Assembly (NCBI GenBank): GCA_947258975.1
Contig: CAMYKK010000032.1
Location: 1-42,554 of the forward strand
Direction of reading: 5' to 3'
Origin: an uncultured Gammaproteobacteria bacterium
GTDB taxonomy: Bacteria; Pseudomonadota; Gammaproteobacteria; Arenicellales; JAANXG01
Length of the DNA: 42,554 bases
Below the pieces are notes generated by a model. That model was not told the DNA's origin, did not search any database, and was given only the letters and a program-made list of their open reading frames with translations. Position 1 is the stretch's first letter; the number at the start of each line of letters is the position of its first letter. Shown here piece by piece: positions 3,819 to 32,348 of this stretch. The position numbers and the translations under genes are program-made.

Positions 3819-3898
3819 GTAACCGCTTTAACACACGTATCGCACCAAGGCGCCCCGCACCTGTTCATGGTATGCGCTCAAGAGATCCGCAACGTCAC

Positions 3899-3998
3899 GG
3901 GACCCACAGCACGCTATGGGTCCCGCTTCCAGGCGCGGCGCCGAGCGGCGCGAGTCCTGCGGCAGCATCCGGGATCCCTGGTGCGCGATACGGGTTAA
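3899..3998 (+). repeat. Dispersed palindromic repeat, copy R1
   Basis: Begins with an 8-bp hairpin (GGGACCCA 3899-3906 with TGGGTCCC 3917-3924) and ends with CCGGGATCCCTGGTGCGCGA followed by TACGGGTTA. By eye it aligns along its length with R5 (upstream of imuA) and, reversed, with R7 (between acpP and fabF). It ends 4 bp before the GTG start of the exonuclease gene. Confidence 0.65.
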
Positions 3999-4002
3999 TG
4001 CC

Positions 4003-4770
4003 GTGAATGTATTAGCGTTCGACATCGAAACAATTCCCGATACGGACGGCGGACGGCGCGTATACGGACTAAACGAATTGAGCGACGCCGAGGTGGCGCA
4101 GATCATGTTCACCAAACGCCGTGAACAGACGGACTCGGAGTTTCTGCCCGCGCATTTTCACAAAATAGTCGCTATCTCTGCAGTGCTGCGCAAGGACGAG
4201 AACTTCAAGGTCTGGTCTTTGGGCACGCCGGATTCCAATGAGTCCGAATTGGTGACCCGTTTTTTTGACGGTGTCGCTCGCTATACGCCAACCTTGGTAT
4301 CATGGAATGGTGGCGGCTTTGATTTGCCGGTGCTGCATTACAGATCCCTCATTAACGGAATCGCGGCGCCTCGATACTGGGATGTGGGTGATGGCGATCG
4401 TGATTTTCGCTGGAACAATTATTTGAATCGTTTCCATCACCGGCATACGGATCTGATGGACGTACTGTCAGGGTATCAGGCGCGACAATTCGCATCTTTG
4501 GATCAAGTCGCGTTAATACTGGGGTTGCCGGGAAAATTGGGACAAAGCGGAGCCAATGTCTGGGACCAGTATCAAGCCGGGGAGATCGAACAGATCCGAA
4601 ACTACTGTGAAACCGATGCATTGAATACCTATCTGATCTTCCTGCGATGGGAACTCATTCGCGGTCACCTGACCGAGCAGAACTGGGAGCGTGAATGTGA
4701 TCTGGTGCGCGCGACACTGCGTCAGGAAAGTGCGGCACACTGGGATACGTTCTTGCACGCATGGCGTTAG
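4003..4770 (+). CDS. PolB-like 3'-5' exonuclease (ribonuclease H-like fold)
   Basis: A 255-residue protein of the COG3298 family, related to the proofreading exonuclease domain of family B DNA polymerases. The DEDD metal ligands are visible: FDIETIP at the N terminus (D and E of Exo I), SWNGGGFDLPVL near residue 105 (Exo II) and ENYCETDALNTYLIF-like sequence (here NYCETDALNTYLIFL) near residue 200 (Exo III, D). Its physiological role is not well known; structured DNA or RNA trimming is an inference. Start chosen as GTG at 4003, which puts the Exo I motif seven residues in, as in homologues; the longer reading frame upstream is repeat R1. It overlaps rlmD by 10 bp, so the two are probably translationally coupled. 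Confidence 0.85.
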   Translation: MNVLAFDIETIPDTDGGRRVYGLNELSDAEVAQIMFTKRREQTDSEFLPAHFHKIVAISAVLRKDENFKVWSLGTPDSNESELVTRFFDGVARYTPTLVSWNGGGFDLPVLHYRSLINGIAAPRYWDVGDGDRDFRWNNYLNRFHHRHTDLMDVLSGYQARQFASLDQVALILGLPGKLGQSGANVWDQYQAGEIEQIRNYCETDALNTYLIFLRWELIRGHLTEQNWERECDLVRATLRQESAAHWDTFLHAWR

Positions 4771-11910: not shown

Positions 11911-11979
11911 GGTTTGCGCTCACGCGTACGGCTATCCCTGCAACATCATCCGGAATCCCTGGCGCAACATACGGACTGA
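11911..11979 (+). repeat. Dispersed palindromic repeat, copy R2 (short form)
   Basis: Contains TTGCGCTCACGC, ACGGCTATCC and the conserved end CATCCGGAATCCCTGGCGCA followed by ACATACGG. It matches the two ends of R5 with the middle missing. It ends 4 bp before the ybbA start codon and lies in the tesA/ybbA divergent promoter region. Confidence 0.55.
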
Positions 11980-16357: not shown

Positions 16358-16945
16358 TTATAGTAATTCCAATCCTTCGGTGTGTAGCATATCAATTAAA
16401 CGGATTAAAGGCAGGCCTATCAAGGCGTTCGGGTCGGAGCCTTCGAACCGCTCTAGCAACGCCACCCCCAGCCCATCGGCGCGTAGGCTTCCGCTACACT
16501 GATAGGGTTGCTCTTTGCGTAAATAGCTGTTTATCAGTGCTTCTGACAACTCCCTGAATTTGACAGTATAGGGCACGACATCGCTCTGAATTCGGCCGCT
16601 ATCGCTGTCGACGAGCGCCAAGCCCGTAAGGAGGGTAACCGCCGCACCCGATGCGGCGCGTAGTTGTGCTTGTGCGTGCGAATGATCGTGCGGCTTCCCG
16701 ACGATCTGACCATGGTGTACCGCAACCTGGTCGGAACCAATCACGAGCGATCCGGGGTGCGAATCTGCAACGACGCGTGCTTTCTCCACCGACAATCGTT
16801 GCACCAGAGCCGCCGGTGTTTCCGCGTTTCTTGGTGTCTCATCGATCATCGGCGCAACCACCTCAAACGGAATCATGAGACGCTCCAGCAACGCCTTGCG
16901 AAAGCGGGAGGAGCTGGCAAGAATCAAACGGCGGCTAGCGCCCAT
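16358..16945 (-). CDS. yceF: Maf-family nucleotide pyrophosphatase, YceF type (7-methyl-GTP pyrophosphatase)
   Basis: House-cleaning pyrophosphatase acting on modified nucleotides. 195 residues, normal length. Family motifs: LILASSSRFRKALLERL (S-R/P-R substrate loop) at the start, VIGSDQVAV (catalytic aspartate) near 70 and GKPHDHSHAQAQL after it; SGSLRADGLGVALLERFEGSDPNALIGLPL is the YceF-type C-terminal region. YceF sits next to yceD-rpmF-plsX in E. coli; here it is on the opposite strand and about 11.6 kb from rpmF. Its start codon lies within the conserved end of repeat R3 (GGTGAGAAATG), and the in-repeat GAGAAATG is the only ribosome-site-like sequence. Confidence 0.88.
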   Translation of the reverse strand: MGASRRLILASSSRFRKALLERLMIPFEVVAPMIDETPRNAETPAALVQRLSVEKARVVADSHPGSLVIGSDQVAVHHGQIVGKPHDHSHAQAQLRAASGAAVTLLTGLALVDSDSGRIQSDVVPYTVKFRELSEALINSYLRKEQPYQCSGSLRADGLGVALLERFEGSDPNALIGLPLIRLIDMLHTEGLELL

Positions 16946-16966
16946 TTCTCACCGGGACACCTATGA
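16935..16966 (-). repeat. Dispersed repeat, copy R3 (conserved end), overlapping the maf start codon
   Basis: Read on the - strand: GGTGTCCCGGTGAGAAATGG then GCGCTAG. This equals the end of R5 (GGTCCGGGTGAGAAATGCGG then GCTAG). The ATG in the motif is the start of the maf/yceF gene. Forms an inverted pair with R4, about 60 bp away. Confidence 0.65.
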
Positions 16967-17014
16967 AACGGCAACATGCGATCCACCGGATTGCCGAACC
17001 AGCACAGAGGCGGG

Positions 17015-17037
17015 GCGCCTGGTGAGAAATGCGGGCC
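17015..17037 (+). repeat. Dispersed repeat, copy R4 (conserved end)
   Basis: GCGCCTGGTGAGAAATGCGG followed by GCC, matching the R5 end over 16 consecutive bases (GGTGAGAAATGCGGGC). Opposite in orientation to R3, so R3-R4 flank about 50 bp like a REP doublet; TTGCCG and CGGCAA pair between them. No gene starts at this copy. Confidence 0.6.
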
Positions 17038-21284: not shown

Positions 21285-21318
21285 ATCCCGTCGCTATCAC
21301 CCGGGATCCTTGGTGCCC
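21285..21318 (+). repeat. Dispersed repeat, copy R6 (right half)
   Basis: CGTCGCTATCACCCGGGATC followed by CTTGGTGCCC, matching R2 (GGCTATCC...ATCCGGAATCCCTGG) and R1 (CATCCGGGATCCCTGGTGCG). It lies 32 bp before the HhH-protein start and points toward it. Confidence 0.45.
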
Positions 21319-21778: not shown

Positions 21779-22112
21779 TGAGAAAAAACTTCATATAAGT
21801 ATTATAAGGTACTAAAAAATATACAAAAAAATATCATACTTAAAGTAGTTTCTCAGGGCTTCTTGTAAGCTTGTATACCTTGCCGTAAACTGTATATAAA
21901 TACACTGTATGAATAATCAGTTTATGGCAGATGACGTCGTGGACACTGGGCTGTTGCGCCCGCTCATTGCACCAAGCTACCCTGATGCCGGTTTGGTCGC
22001 GCACGCCTGGACTTGCGCTTCACGCAACCCATAGCGACGGCTATGCGTTTCGCTCCAGCGCGGTATCCAGCCGCCCGACCCCTGTGCCAGCGTCCGGGGG
22101 TCCGGGTGAGAA
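21779..22112. other. AT-rich intergenic region with SOS promoter and repeat R5
   Basis: 334 bp. Positions 21779-21905 are very AT-rich (runs such as CTAAAAAATATACAAAAAAA) in contrast to the surrounding GC-rich DNA. They lead into the imuA promoter and LexA box, and then into the 130-bp repeat R5, which reaches the imuA start. No gene seen. Confidence 0.7.
21871..21907 (+). promoter_or_regulatory. LexA-controlled promoter of imuA-imuB
   Basis: LexA box AACTGTATATAAATACACTG at 21888-21907, which matches the E. coli consensus TACTGTATATATATACAGTA at 16 of 20 positions. A -35 like TTGTAT (21871-21876) and a -10 TATATA (21893-21898), 16 bp apart, place the box over the -10 element, the normal geometry for SOS repression. 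The predicted transcript would have a leader of about 200 nt containing repeat R5. Confidence 0.75.
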
Positions 22113-22122
22113 ATGCGGGCTA
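21992..22122 (+). repeat. Dispersed palindromic repeat, copy R5 (full length), ending in the imuA start
   Basis: Contains TTGCGCTTCACGCAA, the hairpin CATAGC-GACG-GCTATG (22030-22045) and the conserved end GTCCGGGGGTCCGGGTGAGA then AATGCGGGCTAG. The reverse complement of 21992-22100 aligns by eye with 32125-32216 (R7), with about four of five bases identical. The ATG in its end is the imuA start codon; a TGA at 22107 blocks any upstream start. Confidence 0.7.
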
Positions 22123-22706
22123 GTCACCGACTATGGCGTGGCTTGGATCCTCTGCCGCCGGGTTTGCCGACGGGATTTGCCGCCCTCGATGCCGCACTGC
22201 CCTGGCGAGGGTGGCCAGCGGGATCCGTTATCGAAGTGATCACCCCAGCGTGGGGGATTGGGGAACTACGCCTATTTTTGCCGCTCATGCAGCGGTTATC
22301 CCAGCAGGGCCGCCACGCAGCGTGGATTGCCCCACCCTATGTGCCCTACGCCCCGGCACTGAGTCATGCGGGTATCTCCCTGGCCGGGGCCGTAATTATT
22401 CAGCCGCAGCACCCGCAACAGATATTATGGAGCATGGAAAGGCTGCTGCGCACCGCCGCATGTGGATTGGCGGTTGCCTGGCCGCAACAACTCACCAGCG
22501 TTTCCACGCGTCGTTTGCAACTGGCGGCACGCGGTGGTCACAGCCTGGGAGTGTTGTATTCCCGACAGCATGCCGGCCCGCGCCGGCAGCGGATGCCGAT
22601 CACCTTGAGCGTACGCCTCGATGCCGTTGAAAATGGCTTGACGATCGAGCTTCTCAAGGTCCGCGGTGGTTGCCGACAGCCCCGTGTTACGGTTACCTGG
22701 CCGTGA
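22113..22706 (+). CDS. imuA: Translesion DNA synthesis-associated protein ImuA
   Basis: RecA/SulA-related accessory protein of the ImuA-ImuB-DnaE2 mutasome, induced by DNA damage. 197 residues. Typical opening LWRG...LPTGFAALDAALPWRGWPAGSVIEV, followed by a RecA-fold core (LFLPLMQRLSQQGRHAAWIAPPYVPYAPAL) and a C-terminal RLDAVENGLTIELLKVRGG region. The P-loop is not intact, as is usual in the family. The start codon is supplied by repeat R5. ImuB probably starts at a GTG overlapping this stop (GTGA), so translation is coupled. Confidence 0.88.
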   Translation: MRASHRLWRGLDPLPPGLPTGFAALDAALPWRGWPAGSVIEVITPAWGIGELRLFLPLMQRLSQQGRHAAWIAPPYVPYAPALSHAGISLAGAVIIQPQHPQQILWSMERLLRTAACGLAVAWPQQLTSVSTRRLQLAARGGHSLGVLYSRQHAGPRRQRMPITLSVRLDAVENGLTIELLKVRGGCRQPRVTVTWP

Positions 22707-24205
22707 GTGTTCAGCCTAGGAGGCCGGTAGCAGTGGGCCGAGCCCCGGCGGATTCGCGTGACACATCAACGGATCGACAACCGCAACCACTATGGCTCTG
22801 CATCCGATTCCCACGGCTGGCCCTGGATATCCACCCGCCTGGGCAGTCACCAGTGCGGGCGGTGATCAATGCCGATAATTCCGTGCATAGTGTCTCCGAC
22901 GCCGCCCGTGCCGCCGGCATCGAGACCGGCATGCCTGCTGGCGCGGCTGCCGCGTTGAGCCGCGCCCTGCAGATTCTGCCGCGGGATGTGCGCCGGGAAC
23001 TGAAAGCCTTGGAACAAGCGGCGTGCAGGTGCTGCCAAGTTACGCCCACAGTGAGCCTGGCGCCGCCGGACGCCGTGGCGCTCGATGTGCGCAGCAGCCT
23101 GAAATTATTCGGTGGCTTTGCAGGGATTCAAAGCATCCTCCAAGCGATATTGGCCCCCCTGGGTCACGATTATCACTGGGCGGCTGCGCCGACGCCGGAG
23201 GCTGGTTTGCTATTGGCCCGTTGCCGGCGGGAAATCAAGATCGAAGGCCGGGAACGATTGCGATCGGCCCTGGGCGGGCTGCCGCTATACAGCCTGGACC
23301 TCGATGCCAACTTACTCATGCGCCTGCATAAAACCGGTATACGCCAATTACGGGATTTGTGGCGGTTGCCCCGGGCCGGTTTAGCACGCCGGTTCGGCCT
23401 TGAGTTGGTCGCATACTTGGACCGTATCCGCGGCAAAAGACCGGACCCACGGGCCTTATATCTCCCGCCCTTACAGTTCCGATCGCAATGGGAGTTACCG
23501 GCAGCCAGCGCAGAGCACGCAAGGATATCGGATGCTGCGGACAAACTATTTCGCAAGCTAGTCCGGTTTTTGCGTCGCCACGACGCTGGCACGGCAGCCG
23601 TGGGCGTTCGTTTGTTTCATCTGCGTTCGTCATTTACCCCTATCCATGTCGGGACCCGGGAGCACGCCCGCGATGCGGCGCATCTTCTGCACTTGTTCGA
23701 CCAGGCGCTGCAATGTCGGACGCTTCCCGGACCGGTCACCGGCCTGGAGATGCGGTGCGCGGATATCCAGGCCTTCACCCCCCCTTGTCAGGACCTATTC
23801 CGCAATACCGCGTCCGAAGCTCAAAACTGGCAGCATACATTGGAGGAACTCGAGGCCCGCTTGGGTGGTAAAACGATTCGGCATATCGAGTCCGTGGACG
23901 ATCACCGCCCGGAAAATGCCTGGAGGTATGGGTTGTCGGCGGGTCGCAAAGCCAAACCGCGACAACGGCCATTGTGGCTGTTGCCGCAGCCACAACGACT
24001 CTCCCACCGCGATCGACGTCTGTGGTATCGCGGATATCTAACTTTACGCAGCGGTCCGGAACGCATTGAGTGCGGTTGGTGGGATGGGCAGGACTGTCGT
24101 CGTGATTACTATATTGCCAGCAATCCTCAGAGGGCGCGCTTGTGGATCTTCCAGGATCTGAAACAACGGTCCGATACCTGGTATTTGCATGGGTTGTTTG
24201 GCTGA
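22703..24205 (+). CDS. imuB: Y-family polymerase-like protein ImuB
   Basis: Non-catalytic Y-family polymerase homologue that bridges the beta clamp, ImuA and DnaE2 in error-prone translesion synthesis. About 500 residues. The family start LWLCIRFPRLALDI lies near residue 30; the aspartate found at this place in DinB/UmuC (HVDMDCF) is missing, as expected for ImuB. Later landmarks are VALDVRSSLKLFGG (palm), GIRQLRDLWRLPRAGLARRFG (HhH) and the C-terminal WLLPQPQRL region. GTG at 22703 overlaps the imuA stop; the frame is also open upstream to 22670 within imuA, which is less likely. The unusual gap before dnaE2 is filled by a UbiA-family gene. Confidence 0.88.
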   Translation: MSVQPRRPVAVGRAPADSRDTSTDRQPQPLWLCIRFPRLALDIHPPGQSPVRAVINADNSVHSVSDAARAAGIETGMPAGAAAALSRALQILPRDVRRELKALEQAACRCCQVTPTVSLAPPDAVALDVRSSLKLFGGFAGIQSILQAILAPLGHDYHWAAAPTPEAGLLLARCRREIKIEGRERLRSALGGLPLYSLDLDANLLMRLHKTGIRQLRDLWRLPRAGLARRFGLELVAYLDRIRGKRPDPRALYLPPLQFRSQWELPAASAEHARISDAADKLFRKLVRFLRRHDAGTAAVGVRLFHLRSSFTPIHVGTREHARDAAHLLHLFDQALQCRTLPGPVTGLEMRCADIQAFTPPCQDLFRNTASEAQNWQHTLEELEARLGGKTIRHIESVDDHRPENAWRYGLSAGRKAKPRQRPLWLLPQPQRLSHRDRRLWYRGYLTLRSGPERIECGWWDGQDCRRDYYIASNPQRARLWIFQDLKQRSDTWYLHGLFG

Positions 24206-25386: not shown

Positions 25387-28300
25387 ATGTCAGCCTATGC
25401 GGAGCTCCACTGTGTGAGTAGCTTCACCTTTTTGCGCGGGGCCTCGCAGCCGCAGGAATTGGTGACGCAAGCCGCGGAGTTGGGTTACACCGCTCTGGCG
25501 ATTACCGACGAATGTTCGGTCGCCGGCGTGGTGCAGGCGCATTTGGCGGTCAGGGCGCTTAAGGGTGCCGCATCGCCGGGCGCACGCGGATTCAGCCTCA
25601 AATTGATTGTCGGTAGTGAGTTCCGCCTCGAGGACGGCCTCAAGTTTGTGTTGCTGTCCACCGACCGCGCGAGTTACGGCGGGCTGGTGCACCTCATCAC
25701 TGCGGCGCGCCGAACGGCGGAGAAGGGCGGGTATCACCTGACACGCAAACAGCTCGAGTGCGACGTCCCCAAGGGCTGTATCGCCTTGTGGATACCTGCG
25801 GAGGCGGCAGATCCGCGCGACGGTGAATGGCTCAGCCGGTGTTTCCCCGGGCACACCTGGATCGCGGTGGAACTGTTGTTGAACGGGGATGACCGGCAAC
25901 AGTTGTGTCGTTTGCAGGAACTGGGCAGGCAGCTATGTCTGCCGCTGTGCGCTAGCGGAGATGTGCACATGCATGAACGCGGCCGGCGGGTACTACAGGA
26001 CACCCTGACCGCCATCCGTATGCGCAAGCCACTCCATGAGCTCGGCGGTGCCCTATACCCCAATGGGGAACGTCATCTGCGTCCGCGGGAGCGGTTGGCG
26101 CACCTGTATCCGCAGGCGTTGTTGGCGGCAACGGTAGCCATTGCCAAAAGGTGCCGTTTTTCTTTGGATGAGTTGCGTTATGAATACCCTCGGGAGTTGG
26201 TGCCCAACGGCCGTACCCCGCATTCATGGTTGTGCCGGCTGATCGTGGCGGGTATGCGCCGTCGTTGGCCGCAGGGTGCGCCAACAAGGGTTCGCCGGCT
26301 GATCGAACATGAATTGAAACTGGTCCAAGAACTCCGTTACGAACCCTATTTTCTTACCGTGCATGACATTGTTGCGTTTGCCCGCAGTCAAGGCATCTTG
26401 TGTCAAGGCCGCGGATCCGCGGCCAATTCGGCGATTTGTTATTGCCTGGGTATTACCGAAGTTGATCCGGCACGAATGAACTTGTTGTTTGAACGGTTCA
26501 TTTCCCGGGAACGCAATGAGCCTCCGGACATCGACGTCGATTTCGAGCACGAACGCCGTGAAGAGGTCATCCAGTACATCTATCGAAAATACGGCCGTGA
26601 TCGGGCCGCTCTCGCGTCCACGGTCGTGACTTACCGTCCCCGTAGTGCGGTGCGCGATGTGGGCAAGGCCCTGGGCATGAGCCTGCATCAAGTCGATGGC
26701 TTGGCGAAATCCATTCAATGGTGGGACGGCCGGGACGTCGCATGCGATCACCTGGGACAAATGGGCTTGCAGACCGACAATCCAATCATCAAGCGGCTGC
26801 GCTACCTGGTGAAGGAACTGATTGGCTTCCCACGGCACTTGTCTCAGCACGTGGGCGGCTTCGTGATAACGGCGGGGCCGCTGTCACGGTTGGTTCCGAT
26901 CGAAAATGCCGCCATGCCGGAACGAACGGTGATCCAGTGGGAGAAGGACGACCTGGAGGCATTGGGGCTGCTGAAGGTGGATATCCTGGGCCTTGGCATG
27001 CTCACCGCTATCCACAAGGCATTGGACTATATCTCCGATCACACCGGCAGGCAGTGGGTGATGGCGGATATTCCCGGCGAGGATTCGGCGGTCTATCGGA
27101 TGCTGCAACGAGCCGATACCGTCGGCGTATTTCAAATCGAATCGCGGGCCCAGATGTCGATGTTGCCGCGTTTGAAACCGCGGTGCTACTACGATCTGGT
27201 GATCGAGATTGCCATTGTTCGGCCCGGTCCCATCCAAGGGCAGATGGTCCACCCCTATTTGCGCCGGCGCAGCGGCAAGGAGCCGGTGGCCTATCCCAGC
27301 GCAGAGGTCAAAAGGGTGCTCGAGCGCACGCTTGGTGTCCCCATCTTCCAGGAACAAGTGATGCAATTGTCCATTATCGCCGGCGGGTTTACCCCCGGCG
27401 AGGCGGACCAGCTGCGCCGCAGCATGGCCGCTTGGCGCCGCCGGGGCGGGTTGCAAAAATTTCAATGCAAGCTCATGCAAGGCATGCGGGATCGCGGCTA
27501 TGATGAGCGGTTTGCCGGGCAGATCTGCCAGCAAATCGAGGGTTTTGGCGAATACGGTTTTCCCGAGTCTCACTCTGCCAGCTTTGCCCTGCTGGCGTAC
27601 GTCTCGTCCTGGCTAAAACACTATTACCCGGCGGCGTTTACCTGTGCCCTGCTCAACAGTCGGCCTATGGGTTTTTATGCCCCGGCACAGCTGATTCAGG
27701 ATGCGCGCCGCCATGGGGTGGAGGTACGGCCGGTGGACGTCCGCTACAGCGGCGAGGAATGCACGCTGGAGCCATTGGCGGATTCCGCGCAGCCGGCGCT
27801 GCGGCTTGGGTTGTGCATGGTCAAGGGGTTGTCACGGGCCGGCATCACCCGGTTACTGGTAGCCCGGAAACGGGGATGGACCGCCGACCTCCAGGATCTC
27901 AAGGCGCGGGCCGGGCTGGGTACCCGGGATCTGGGCAGCCTGGCCGCCGCAGGTGCCCTCGAGGGGCTTGCGGGCCACCGGCATCGCGCCTTTTGGGAGG
28001 TCAACGGTGTACCGGCGTCGACCCCGCTACTGCCGCAGCTGCGTTTTGCCGAGGGCGAGCCCTTATTGCGCCGGCCCCGCGAGGGTGAGGATGTTGTGGC
28101 CGATTATGCCAGCATGGGGTTGAGCCTCGGGCGTCATCCATTGGCCCTGTTGCGTCCACAGCTGTCCGCGGGAGGCATACGTCAAGCAGCGGAACTATGG
28201 CGGCTGGCCAATGGCAGCACGGCGACTGCGGCCGGCCTGGTCATCTGCCGTCAGCGTCCCGGTTCTGCTTCTGGAGTCGTCTTCCTGACCTTGGAGGACG

Positions 28301-28497
28301 AAACCGGTCATGTGAATGTCGTGGTGTGGCCAAGCGCGAGTGAGGCTCAACGTCGGCCTCTGCTACAGTCACGGTTATTGGCTGTGACTGGCGCGGTTCA
28401 ACGGGAAGATGGTGTGTTACATTTGATCGCTGGACGCCTGCGGGATCTCACCGGCTGGCTGGGGCAACTGCGGACACAATCACGGGATTTCCAGTAG
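25387..28497 (+). CDS. dnaE2: Error-prone DNA polymerase DnaE2 (ImuC)
   Basis: C-family polymerase of the SOS mutasome. 1036 residues, typical for DnaE2 and shorter than DnaE1 (1160). N-terminal PHP domain (YAELHCVSSFTFLRGASQPQELV; partly degenerate), polymerase palm with PDIDVDF near 379-385 holding two catalytic aspartates, RGSAANSAICYCLGIT before it, DILGLGMLTAIHK after it, and the HhH plus OB domains at the C terminus (VVFLTLEDETGHVNVVVWP). ATG at 25387 gives the family N terminus; no ribosome site is visible because the LexA box occupies that place. Confidence 0.95.
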   Translation: MSAYAELHCVSSFTFLRGASQPQELVTQAAELGYTALAITDECSVAGVVQAHLAVRALKGAASPGARGFSLKLIVGSEFRLEDGLKFVLLSTDRASYGGLVHLITAARRTAEKGGYHLTRKQLECDVPKGCIALWIPAEAADPRDGEWLSRCFPGHTWIAVELLLNGDDRQQLCRLQELGRQLCLPLCASGDVHMHERGRRVLQDTLTAIRMRKPLHELGGALYPNGERHLRPRERLAHLYPQALLAATVAIAKRCRFSLDELRYEYPRELVPNGRTPHSWLCRLIVAGMRRRWPQGAPTRVRRLIEHELKLVQELRYEPYFLTVHDIVAFARSQGILCQGRGSAANSAICYCLGITEVDPARMNLLFERFISRERNEPPDIDVDFEHERREEVIQYIYRKYGRDRAALASTVVTYRPRSAVRDVGKALGMSLHQVDGLAKSIQWWDGRDVACDHLGQMGLQTDNPIIKRLRYLVKELIGFPRHLSQHVGGFVITAGPLSRLVPIENAAMPERTVIQWEKDDLEALGLLKVDILGLGMLTAIHKALDYISDHTGRQWVMADIPGEDSAVYRMLQRADTVGVFQIESRAQMSMLPRLKPRCYYDLVIEIAIVRPGPIQGQMVHPYLRRRSGKEPVAYPSAEVKRVLERTLGVPIFQEQVMQLSIIAGGFTPGEADQLRRSMAAWRRRGGLQKFQCKLMQGMRDRGYDERFAGQICQQIEGFGEYGFPESHSASFALLAYVSSWLKHYYPAAFTCALLNSRPMGFYAPAQLIQDARRHGVEVRPVDVRYSGEECTLEPLADSAQPALRLGLCMVKGLSRAGITRLLVARKRGWTADLQDLKARAGLGTRDLGSLAAAGALEGLAGHRHRAFWEVNGVPASTPLLPQLRFAEGEPLLRRPREGEDVVADYASMGLSLGRHPLALLRPQLSAGGIRQAAELWRLANGSTATAAGLVICRQRPGSASGVVFLTLEDETGHVNVVVWPSASEAQRRPLLQSRLLAVTGAVQREDGVLHLIAGRLRDLTGWLGQLRTQSRDFQ

Positions 28498-31778: not shown

Positions 31779-32018
31779 ATGAGCAGTGTCGATGAACGCG
31801 TCAAAAAAATCGTCGTGGAACAGCTCGGCGTGGGGGAGGAACAGGTGACACCCGAAGCTTCGTTCGTCGATGATTTGGGCGCTGACTCTTTGGATACCGT
31901 TGAGCTGGTCATGGCGCTGGAGGAAGAGTTTGATACCGAAATTCCTGACGAGGAAGCGGAGAAAATTACCACAGTGCAACAAGCCGTCGATTACATCCAG
32001 GCCAACGCGACCGCTTGA
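31779..32018 (+). CDS. acpP: Acyl carrier protein
   Basis: 79-residue acidic carrier of acyl chains in fatty-acid and phospholipid synthesis. Phosphopantetheine attaches to S37 in [22 protein letters not shown] at 31779 with GGAGG about 10 bp upstream; the longer frame upstream is untranslated leader. Followed by a rho-independent terminator. Confidence 0.97.
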
Positions 32019-32087: not shown

Positions 32088-32216
32088 CTCGTGTATTGCA
32101 TCAAAGGATCGGGATGATGGCGACGGGGTCGGGCGGCTGGACGCCGCGCTGTAGCGATATGCATAGCCGCTCCGCTGTGCGTTGAGTGAAGCGCAAGTGC
32201 AGGCGCTCGAAACCGC
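32088..32216 (-). repeat. Dispersed palindromic repeat, copy R7 (full length)
   Basis: The part GGGGTCGGGCGGCTGGA...AAGCGCAAGTGCAGGCG (32125-32205) matches the reverse complement of R5 along about 90 bp, and 32088-32125 (GGATCGGGATGATGGCGAC) matches the reverse complement of R1's GATCCCGGATGCTGCCGC. The hairpin GCATAGC/GCTGTGC retains pairing through a G-T pair. Unlike most copies it points away from the nearest gene start. Confidence 0.6.
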
Positions 32217-32348
32217 GCCGGCGCTGGGACAACGCTGATATCCGGGAACGAACCGTCACGCCGGGCATTGAACGAATTCTTTATACCAAACAAAATGTTT
32301 GCTCATTTTTGCGCCGCCTCGGTGGCACATAGGGGTTAGGGTAACGTT

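Follow-up and report, generated by a model that had tools for sequence, protein, structure and literature searches.

Insertion sequences of the IS1380 family duplicate 4–5 bp of their target. For IS1247, a member of this family, a 5-bp duplication has been tabulated (PMC3281130). The Rickettsia RPE, the Correia and RUP elements and the enterobacterial MITEs are described as short mobile palindromes, some of which are fused in frame to genes (PMC2229807), and the ends and direct repeats of MITEPye1 from Paracoccus yeei served to place it in an IS family (PMC11578231). A precedent for start codons derived from terminal inverted repeats (TIRs) is MITEAba12 of Acinetobacter, three copies of which, with the TIR read outward, provide neighbouring genes with a start codon and N-terminal residues (MQQS; PMC6382973). 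The end sequence reported below was not found in the literature searched, and passages from some of the publications naming both IS1380 and MITE held no description of an IS1380 MITE; in PMC8841776, MITE was found only in the reference list.

Here, we describe a dispersed repeat in the genome of an uncultured gammaproteobacterium (5.49 Mb, 214 contigs) that is a MITE family carrying IS1380-type ends, not a REP family. The window that we analysed is the whole of contig 32 (42,554 nt), in which an initial annotation had reported seven copies of a dispersed, imperfectly palindromic repeat. The existence of such a family is borne out genome-wide: the 16-mer GGTGAGAAATGCGGGC occurs with at most one mismatch at 59 places, compared with 0 for the reversed control, and the 18-base end including CTA occurs with at most three mismatches at 120 places, compared with 5. 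Full copies carry GGTGAGAAATGCGGGC at both ends, facing outward, and have two usual inner borders, either CATCCGGGATCCT or GGCGCCGCCT and its relatives. The 15-bp terminal repeats read CCCGCATTTCTCACC at one end and GGTGAGAAATGCGGG at the other; the element opens with CCCGC, closes with GCGGG and duplicates the 4-bp target YTAR at its flanks. Among the 74 distinct paired elements, drawn from all loci collected with at most one mismatch per end, the flanks are equal in 40 (CTAG/CTAG in 30, TTAG/TTAG in 6 and CTAA/CTAA in 4) and unequal in 34. These paired copies are 34–408 bp long (n=74), mostly 160–320 bp, and no transposase gene lies within those inspected. The family shows features of a bacterial MITE, namely terminal inverted repeats, a target-site duplication and short, multicopy elements devoid of a transposase. 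An IS630-type assignment with TA duplication, suggested by the first seven distinct full elements, was rejected when the larger set gave 4 bp; it is also opposed by the absence of PF13358 from the genome.

Some variation in internal structure was seen as well. Blocks that run between CAGCTACTATTC and GAATAGTAGCTGG occur in several elements (L021, L028, L011) and may represent another mobile element nested in them. At L012 (G000, the genome analysed here, contig 46, 24865–24911) a 47-bp palindrome consists of two right ends back to back, and minimal forms of 34–53 bp akin to it occur at L088, L151 and L176. Another inverted motif, GGGGTCGGAGTC...GACTCCGACCCC, is found repeatedly close to or inside several copies (L003, L007, L017).

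In the window, five of the seven intervals initially annotated hold and correspond to four elements (Table 1), whereas 11911–11979 and 21285–21318 fail as copies. We used one profile of 47 right ends and one of 45 left ends, both built from other contigs. The right-end profile matched 22027–22122 (E 1e-11) and 3903–3997 (E 3.5e-9) and, more weakly, 17018–17036 (E 7e-4) and 32183–32111 (E 9e-4), and the left-end profile matched 16990–17036 (E 3e-9) and, on the minus strand, 3883–3838 (E 1e-3). By profile alone the interval 16935–16966 is not significant (E 1.3 and 0.5), but it is otherwise supported by an end only two mismatches from the 18-mer, by its orientation toward the end at 17021, its mate, and by the maf orthologs; together with 17015–17037 it makes up the two ends of the single element at maf, which is flanked by CTAG at 16935–16938 on one side and by CCGG on the other. 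The interval 11911–11979 gave no BLAST match at E 1e-3 and a profile E of 39, and 21285–21318 likewise gave no BLAST match and had a profile E of 0.9, its score of 4.5 equalling the best score of the shuffled controls. The extents of the imuA and exonuclease elements differ from the intervals first reported, and the latter element directly precedes a called start at 4003. The LexA-box-like sequence was called against the LexA-box consensus. Between imuA and an error-prone polymerase gene (25387–28497), the frame at 22853–24205 occupies the position expected for imuB; no NCBIfam model matched it at E 0.001.

Table 1 Features of the window bearing on the repeat family and its neighbouring genes
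Feature	Position	Strand	Remarks
imuA element, 161 bp	21959..22119	+	right flank CTAG 22120–22123; left flank (21955–21958) decayed
Right terminal repeat GGTGAGAAATGCGGG	22105..22119	+	ATG 22113–22115, at which the remaining imuA has its first in-frame start
Leader ORF from native imuA start, 36 codons	21924..22034	+	stop lies within the element
imuA, 197 aa, N-terminus MRASHRLWRG	22113..22706	+	NF033429 (E 3e-51); orthologs
LexA-box-like sequence	21890..21905	+	upstream of native imuA start; a similar site precedes imuA in relatives
maf element, 97 bp	16939..17035	-	between native maf GTG (17043–17041, minus strand) and remaining maf
maf, 195 aa, begins MGASRRLILASSS at element ATG	16358..16945	-	TIGR00172 (E 1e-49); orthologs
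Exonuclease copy, 163 bp	3832..3994	+	TTAA at 3828–3831 and 3995–3998; ends are a diverged variant
Diverged copy, approximate extent	32088..32222	-	right end directed at the 3′ side of a gene that ends at 32018

The same genome contains a candidate partner, a 486-aa frame enclosed by ends of the form GGTGAGAAATCCAGG followed by CTAG that matches PF13701 (E 3e-157) and the IS1380 transposase model NF033539 (E 1e-120). The ends of this IS and those of the MITE share 13 of 15 bases, as counted by eye. Complete identity of the ends was found at locus L197 in a genome of the same class, where CTAG followed by CCCGCATTTCTCACCA stands at both ends of an autonomous IS1380 element spanning 1738 bp, the transposase of which is 79% identical to that of our genome. 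A class-wide search for the family in 274 genomes gave matches in 54, above the cut-off in 15; among the 18 IS1380 loci inspected, such ends were present on both sides at L197 and on one side at L211, L198 is the locus of our own genome, and the other 15 had none. With the IS1380 protein of our genome as the sole query, matches were obtained in 4 of 10 genomes, and this one query detected no matching transposase in the heavily loaded G008 (248 ends). An IS1380 homologue in G001 is without these ends; IS1380 fragments occur in both G012 and G025, and such ends lie in the vicinity at the G025 locus only. In other genomes, the stretches found by exact 20-mer match (at least 119) showed neither an IS1380 gene nor a widely shared ORF beside the ends.

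The spread of the family within genera is patchy. Of 60 genomes searched, including our own, 13 match, all five congeners among them; the counts in another genus of the same taxonomic family are 248, 0, 0 and 152, and a genome of another family has 237 and a congener of it 0. The titles of the records found in the 20-mer scan, which are mostly MAGs in which binning errors are possible, include, among the matches listed, Gammaproteobacteria, Acidobacteria, Planctomycetota, Myxococcales, Verrucomicrobia, Nitrospira and others, and also the isolate Acanthopleuribacter pedis. Paired-end spacings in these stretches cluster near 160–190 and 240 bp.

For the relation of the copies to genes, we collected 84 stretches (290 kb) around them and called genes with a home-made codon-usage script that was judged on this window alone and whose called starts are guesses. 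These stretches hold 107 ends of the 120 places, or 105 after dropping the IS1380 element itself, whose contig (C102) was also left out of the stop-codon and frame counts. An element end lies at the stop codon of the neighbouring gene in 20 of 85 elements, in 19 exactly and in one with an offset of one base, the stop at the element edge being the TAG or TAA of YTAR. We then followed inward ORFs independently of gene calls, using ends with at least 460 bases outward and allowing at most two mismatches in 15 in our genome and at most one in the others. In our genome, 13 of 56 stop-flanked ends have an ORF of at least 150 codons that closes on the duplicated stop, and such ORFs enter the element in the other two frames in 0/86 and 0/86; in other genomes the corresponding figures are 40/166 versus 11/180 and 6/180, and at a threshold of at least 100 codons in our genome they are 15/56 versus 2/86 and 5/86. 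Since truncation would fill all three frames, the stops in this genome look native. Among element-free YTAR sites (at stops or intergenic), stops account for 15 of 90 CTAG and 30 of 230 TTAG sites, CTAA being counted as TTAG on the other strand. Against this background the 20 of 85 gives p 0.11 (CTAG alone) or 0.018 (pooled), that is, at most a mild excess, attributable to target choice and survival.

The conserved end was also reported initially to supply the start codons of imuA and maf, and this was confirmed: GGTGAGAAATG gives the first ATG of both frames, and comparison with orthologs, imuA without the element in G005 and G004 and maf in the congeners, shows that the native start has been displaced in both genes. 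By ortholog comparison, the insertions lie inside the first codons of both genes, and the terminal ATG is now the first in-frame start. The element-free imuA genes of G005 and G004 start with MADIAVDIKLSSPRLWRG or MADIVASGHRLWRG after a LexA-box-like site. In the window, the native imuA start is kept at 21924 (MADDVVDTGL...), the element sits in about codon 11, and the gene resumes at the ATG at 22113 with the native frame in phase and two stops between. In G002, a copy of another subtype occupies the same site, its ATG again opening the imuA frame, and the leader opened by the native start runs for 62 codons, past the new ATG, with an overlap of 11 nt. The imuA copies of G000 and G002 are 65% identical to each other and 83–84% identical to other copies. 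We had first considered a single old insertion shared by both genomes, its ATG retained during decay. However, G005 and G004 are without the element, the two copies are of different subtypes, and the dS order places G000 outside G002, G005 and G004; these comparisons favour two insertions at the same site over a less likely single insertion followed by conversion or loss. In the 5′ region of imuA in G003 (L232), an extended N-terminus includes what looks, by eye, like a decayed element end (GGCGAGCAATGCGGACTG).

The maf genes of the five congeners begin (ATG/GTG/TTG)-(S/P)-(N/Q)-R-(R/H)-L-I-L-A-S-S-S, with inferred start codons, and in the window a GTG fitting this start sits beyond the element, the gene itself reading MGASRRLILASSS. 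For rnhB, G005 and G002 have MYKSPHKQQVVGVDEAGRG and MYKSPHRQQVVGVDEAGRG, while our genome has MRAGAAGVDEAGRG after a copy of ~265 bp, upstream of which the native start remains. A ClC channel gene begins MAKQ... in G002 and G004 and reads MRASWSERIAQFF in our genome, a weaker case because the native start was not placed. Overall, the terminal ATG is the called start at 5 of the 105 ends, i.e., those of imuA, maf, rnhB, ClC and a 77-residue ORF (C27:2733); at C3:276616 it is in frame and another start was called. Among outward ORFs of at least 150 codons, the ATG frame, the next frame and the third frame account for 9, 5 and 1 in our genome (86 ends) and for 19, 24 and 1 in other genomes (180 ends), the third being mostly closed by the stop in CTAG, and the ATG frame is not clearly enriched over the neighbouring open frame. 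Substitutions at the three ATG bases number 5, 9 and 13 of 105, compared with 2 to 20 at other positions, and conservation of the ATG does not exceed that of the rest of the end. Start donation is most simply explained as chance landing followed by survival.

Very probably, then, we are dealing with a MITE family with IS1380 ends and a YTAR target, the copies of which survive at harmless sites, stop codons included, and occasionally donate a start. Judging from the shared ends, the MITE is most likely moved in trans by an IS1380-family transposase. Insertion at YTAR duplicates these 4 bp, as read from the flanks, and copies would build up where harm is small. The commonest harmless site seen is the gene's own stop codon, a position that survival would explain: it may be tolerated because YTAG or YTAA contains a stop and the duplication keeps it. 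Read outward, an intact end has the form GGTGA-GAA-ATG, a putative Shine-Dalgarno-like site with a start codon; GGTGA is able to base-pair with the anti-Shine-Dalgarno end of 16S rRNA, six bases separate its GG from the ATG, and in ATG CGG G plus YTAR the frame remains open. If a copy falls into the first codons in the right frame, translation could restart at the terminal ATG, as sequence and orthologs suggest for imuA, maf and rnhB and, less firmly, for ClC. The imuA leader is predicted to be strongly folded, with the site paired in the longer of two folds, which makes it plausible that restart at the imuA ATG is coupled to the leader ORF. Between 21780 and 22200, neither a sigma-70-like promoter nor a terminator was found.

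The initial annotation had instead emphasized that five of the seven copies point at gene starts and had proposed a bias that would reflect either an insertion preference or a role in translation or RNA structure. Five of seven is a count for this window, with two of those five unsupported as copies, and a bias toward starts did not survive the genome-wide count, in which 63 of the 105 ends look toward a gene end and 38 toward a start, one further end being intragenic and three having nothing in view. Random intergenic points in the same stretches look at a start in 54% of views, and starts are thus not in excess. With one end per element (n=85), 51 face gene ends and 30 starts; by type, gene ends compare with starts as 31 to 12 for left-type and 26 to 22 for right-type ends. 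The 101 start- or end-facing ends include 13 within 35 bp of a start and 29 within 35 bp of a gene end, where random views give 7.6% (p 0.057) and 6.6% (p 8e-12), p values that are rough because paired ends of the same element depend on each other; the crowding is at gene ends. A functional element that acts in RNA or translation and is selectively maintained at gene starts might draw on the 13 close starts, on the Shine-Dalgarno-like site and ATG of the end and on their use by four genes, but the overall counts, an ATG frame that is not preferred, an ATG that is not specially conserved and zero Rfam matches in the window at gathering score make it very improbable. Even less can be said for a REP or BIME moved by a RAYT transposase. 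The copies are palindromic, numerous and mostly beside gene ends, and the genome holds three Y1-transposase genes; however, a linked RAYT, which had been suggested for checking, did not emerge, as none of the three Y1 loci has such an end in its flanks (at most 3 mismatches of 15), and terminal inverted repeats, a 4-bp duplication where REP or BIME should have none, and ends common to IS1380 elements render this origin practically negligible. The start-bias and REP readings should be dropped.

It is harder to dismiss the view that imuA, maf, rnhB and ClC are dying genes, with the elements as a mark of their decay, and that an ORF finder picks the terminal ATG only because an upstream TGA leaves it no earlier start. 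In an intact end a TGA two codons before the ATG makes this ATG the first in-frame start by construction, and a nei-like gene (L025, G000 contig 128, about 2310–2560) did lose its N-terminus, a full-length copy flanked on either side by CTAG having broken its codon 9, with the terminal ATG out of frame. Yet all four genes keep full-length frames, and dN/dS between our genome and its relatives is low (imuA 0.16–0.31, maf 0.09–0.12, rnhB 0.10–0.14, ClC 0.06–0.08), albeit as an average over the time before and after insertion. Protein profiles begin right after the fusion (residue 6 at profile position 1 for maf and for rnhB, residue 8 at position 3 for imuA), and the copy of the second subtype in G002 opens the imuA frame in the same manner. 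Gene decay at these four loci consequently appears unlikely to us. Rather more doubtful is the opposite extreme, a selected stealth design that is translation-neutral on both sides, with the YTAR duplication regenerating stops and the Shine-Dalgarno-ATG end rescuing genes hit early; if true, its signature would be that two species were hit independently at the same imuA codon.

Here, orthologs show the edge of a mobile element becoming the start codon of imuA (SOS mutagenesis), maf, rnhB and probably a ClC channel gene. The stop-containing target site suggests a simple route to a high MITE copy number with little damage, and the stop-codon pattern is also present among records whose titles name several phyla. 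For annotation, M-R-A-(S/G) starts directly after GGTGAGAA may be element-derived. With REP/BIME and RAYT systems the family shares numerous palindromes lying mostly after genes, and it differs in ends, duplication and transposase type. MITEPye1 belongs to the IS1182 family and has 1–3 chromosomal copies (PMC11578231). The TIR of MITEAba12 likewise gives neighbouring genes a start codon, but its duplications are of 9 bp without a sequence trend and its IS is ISAba12; displaced native starts and landing at stop codons are not mentioned for it in the accessible text of PMC6382973. IS1380-family insertion sequences share the terminal repeats (L197), the flanking CTAG and, as the enzyme, a DDE transposase (PF13701, NF033539), whereas the MITE copies are far shorter, more numerous and without a transposase gene. 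Finally, in the RPE, Correia, RUP and enterobacterial MITE elements, as PMC2229807 describes the fusions, these run through an open frame inside the element, whereas the frames of the IS1380-type MITE are mostly closed and its edge alone is used.
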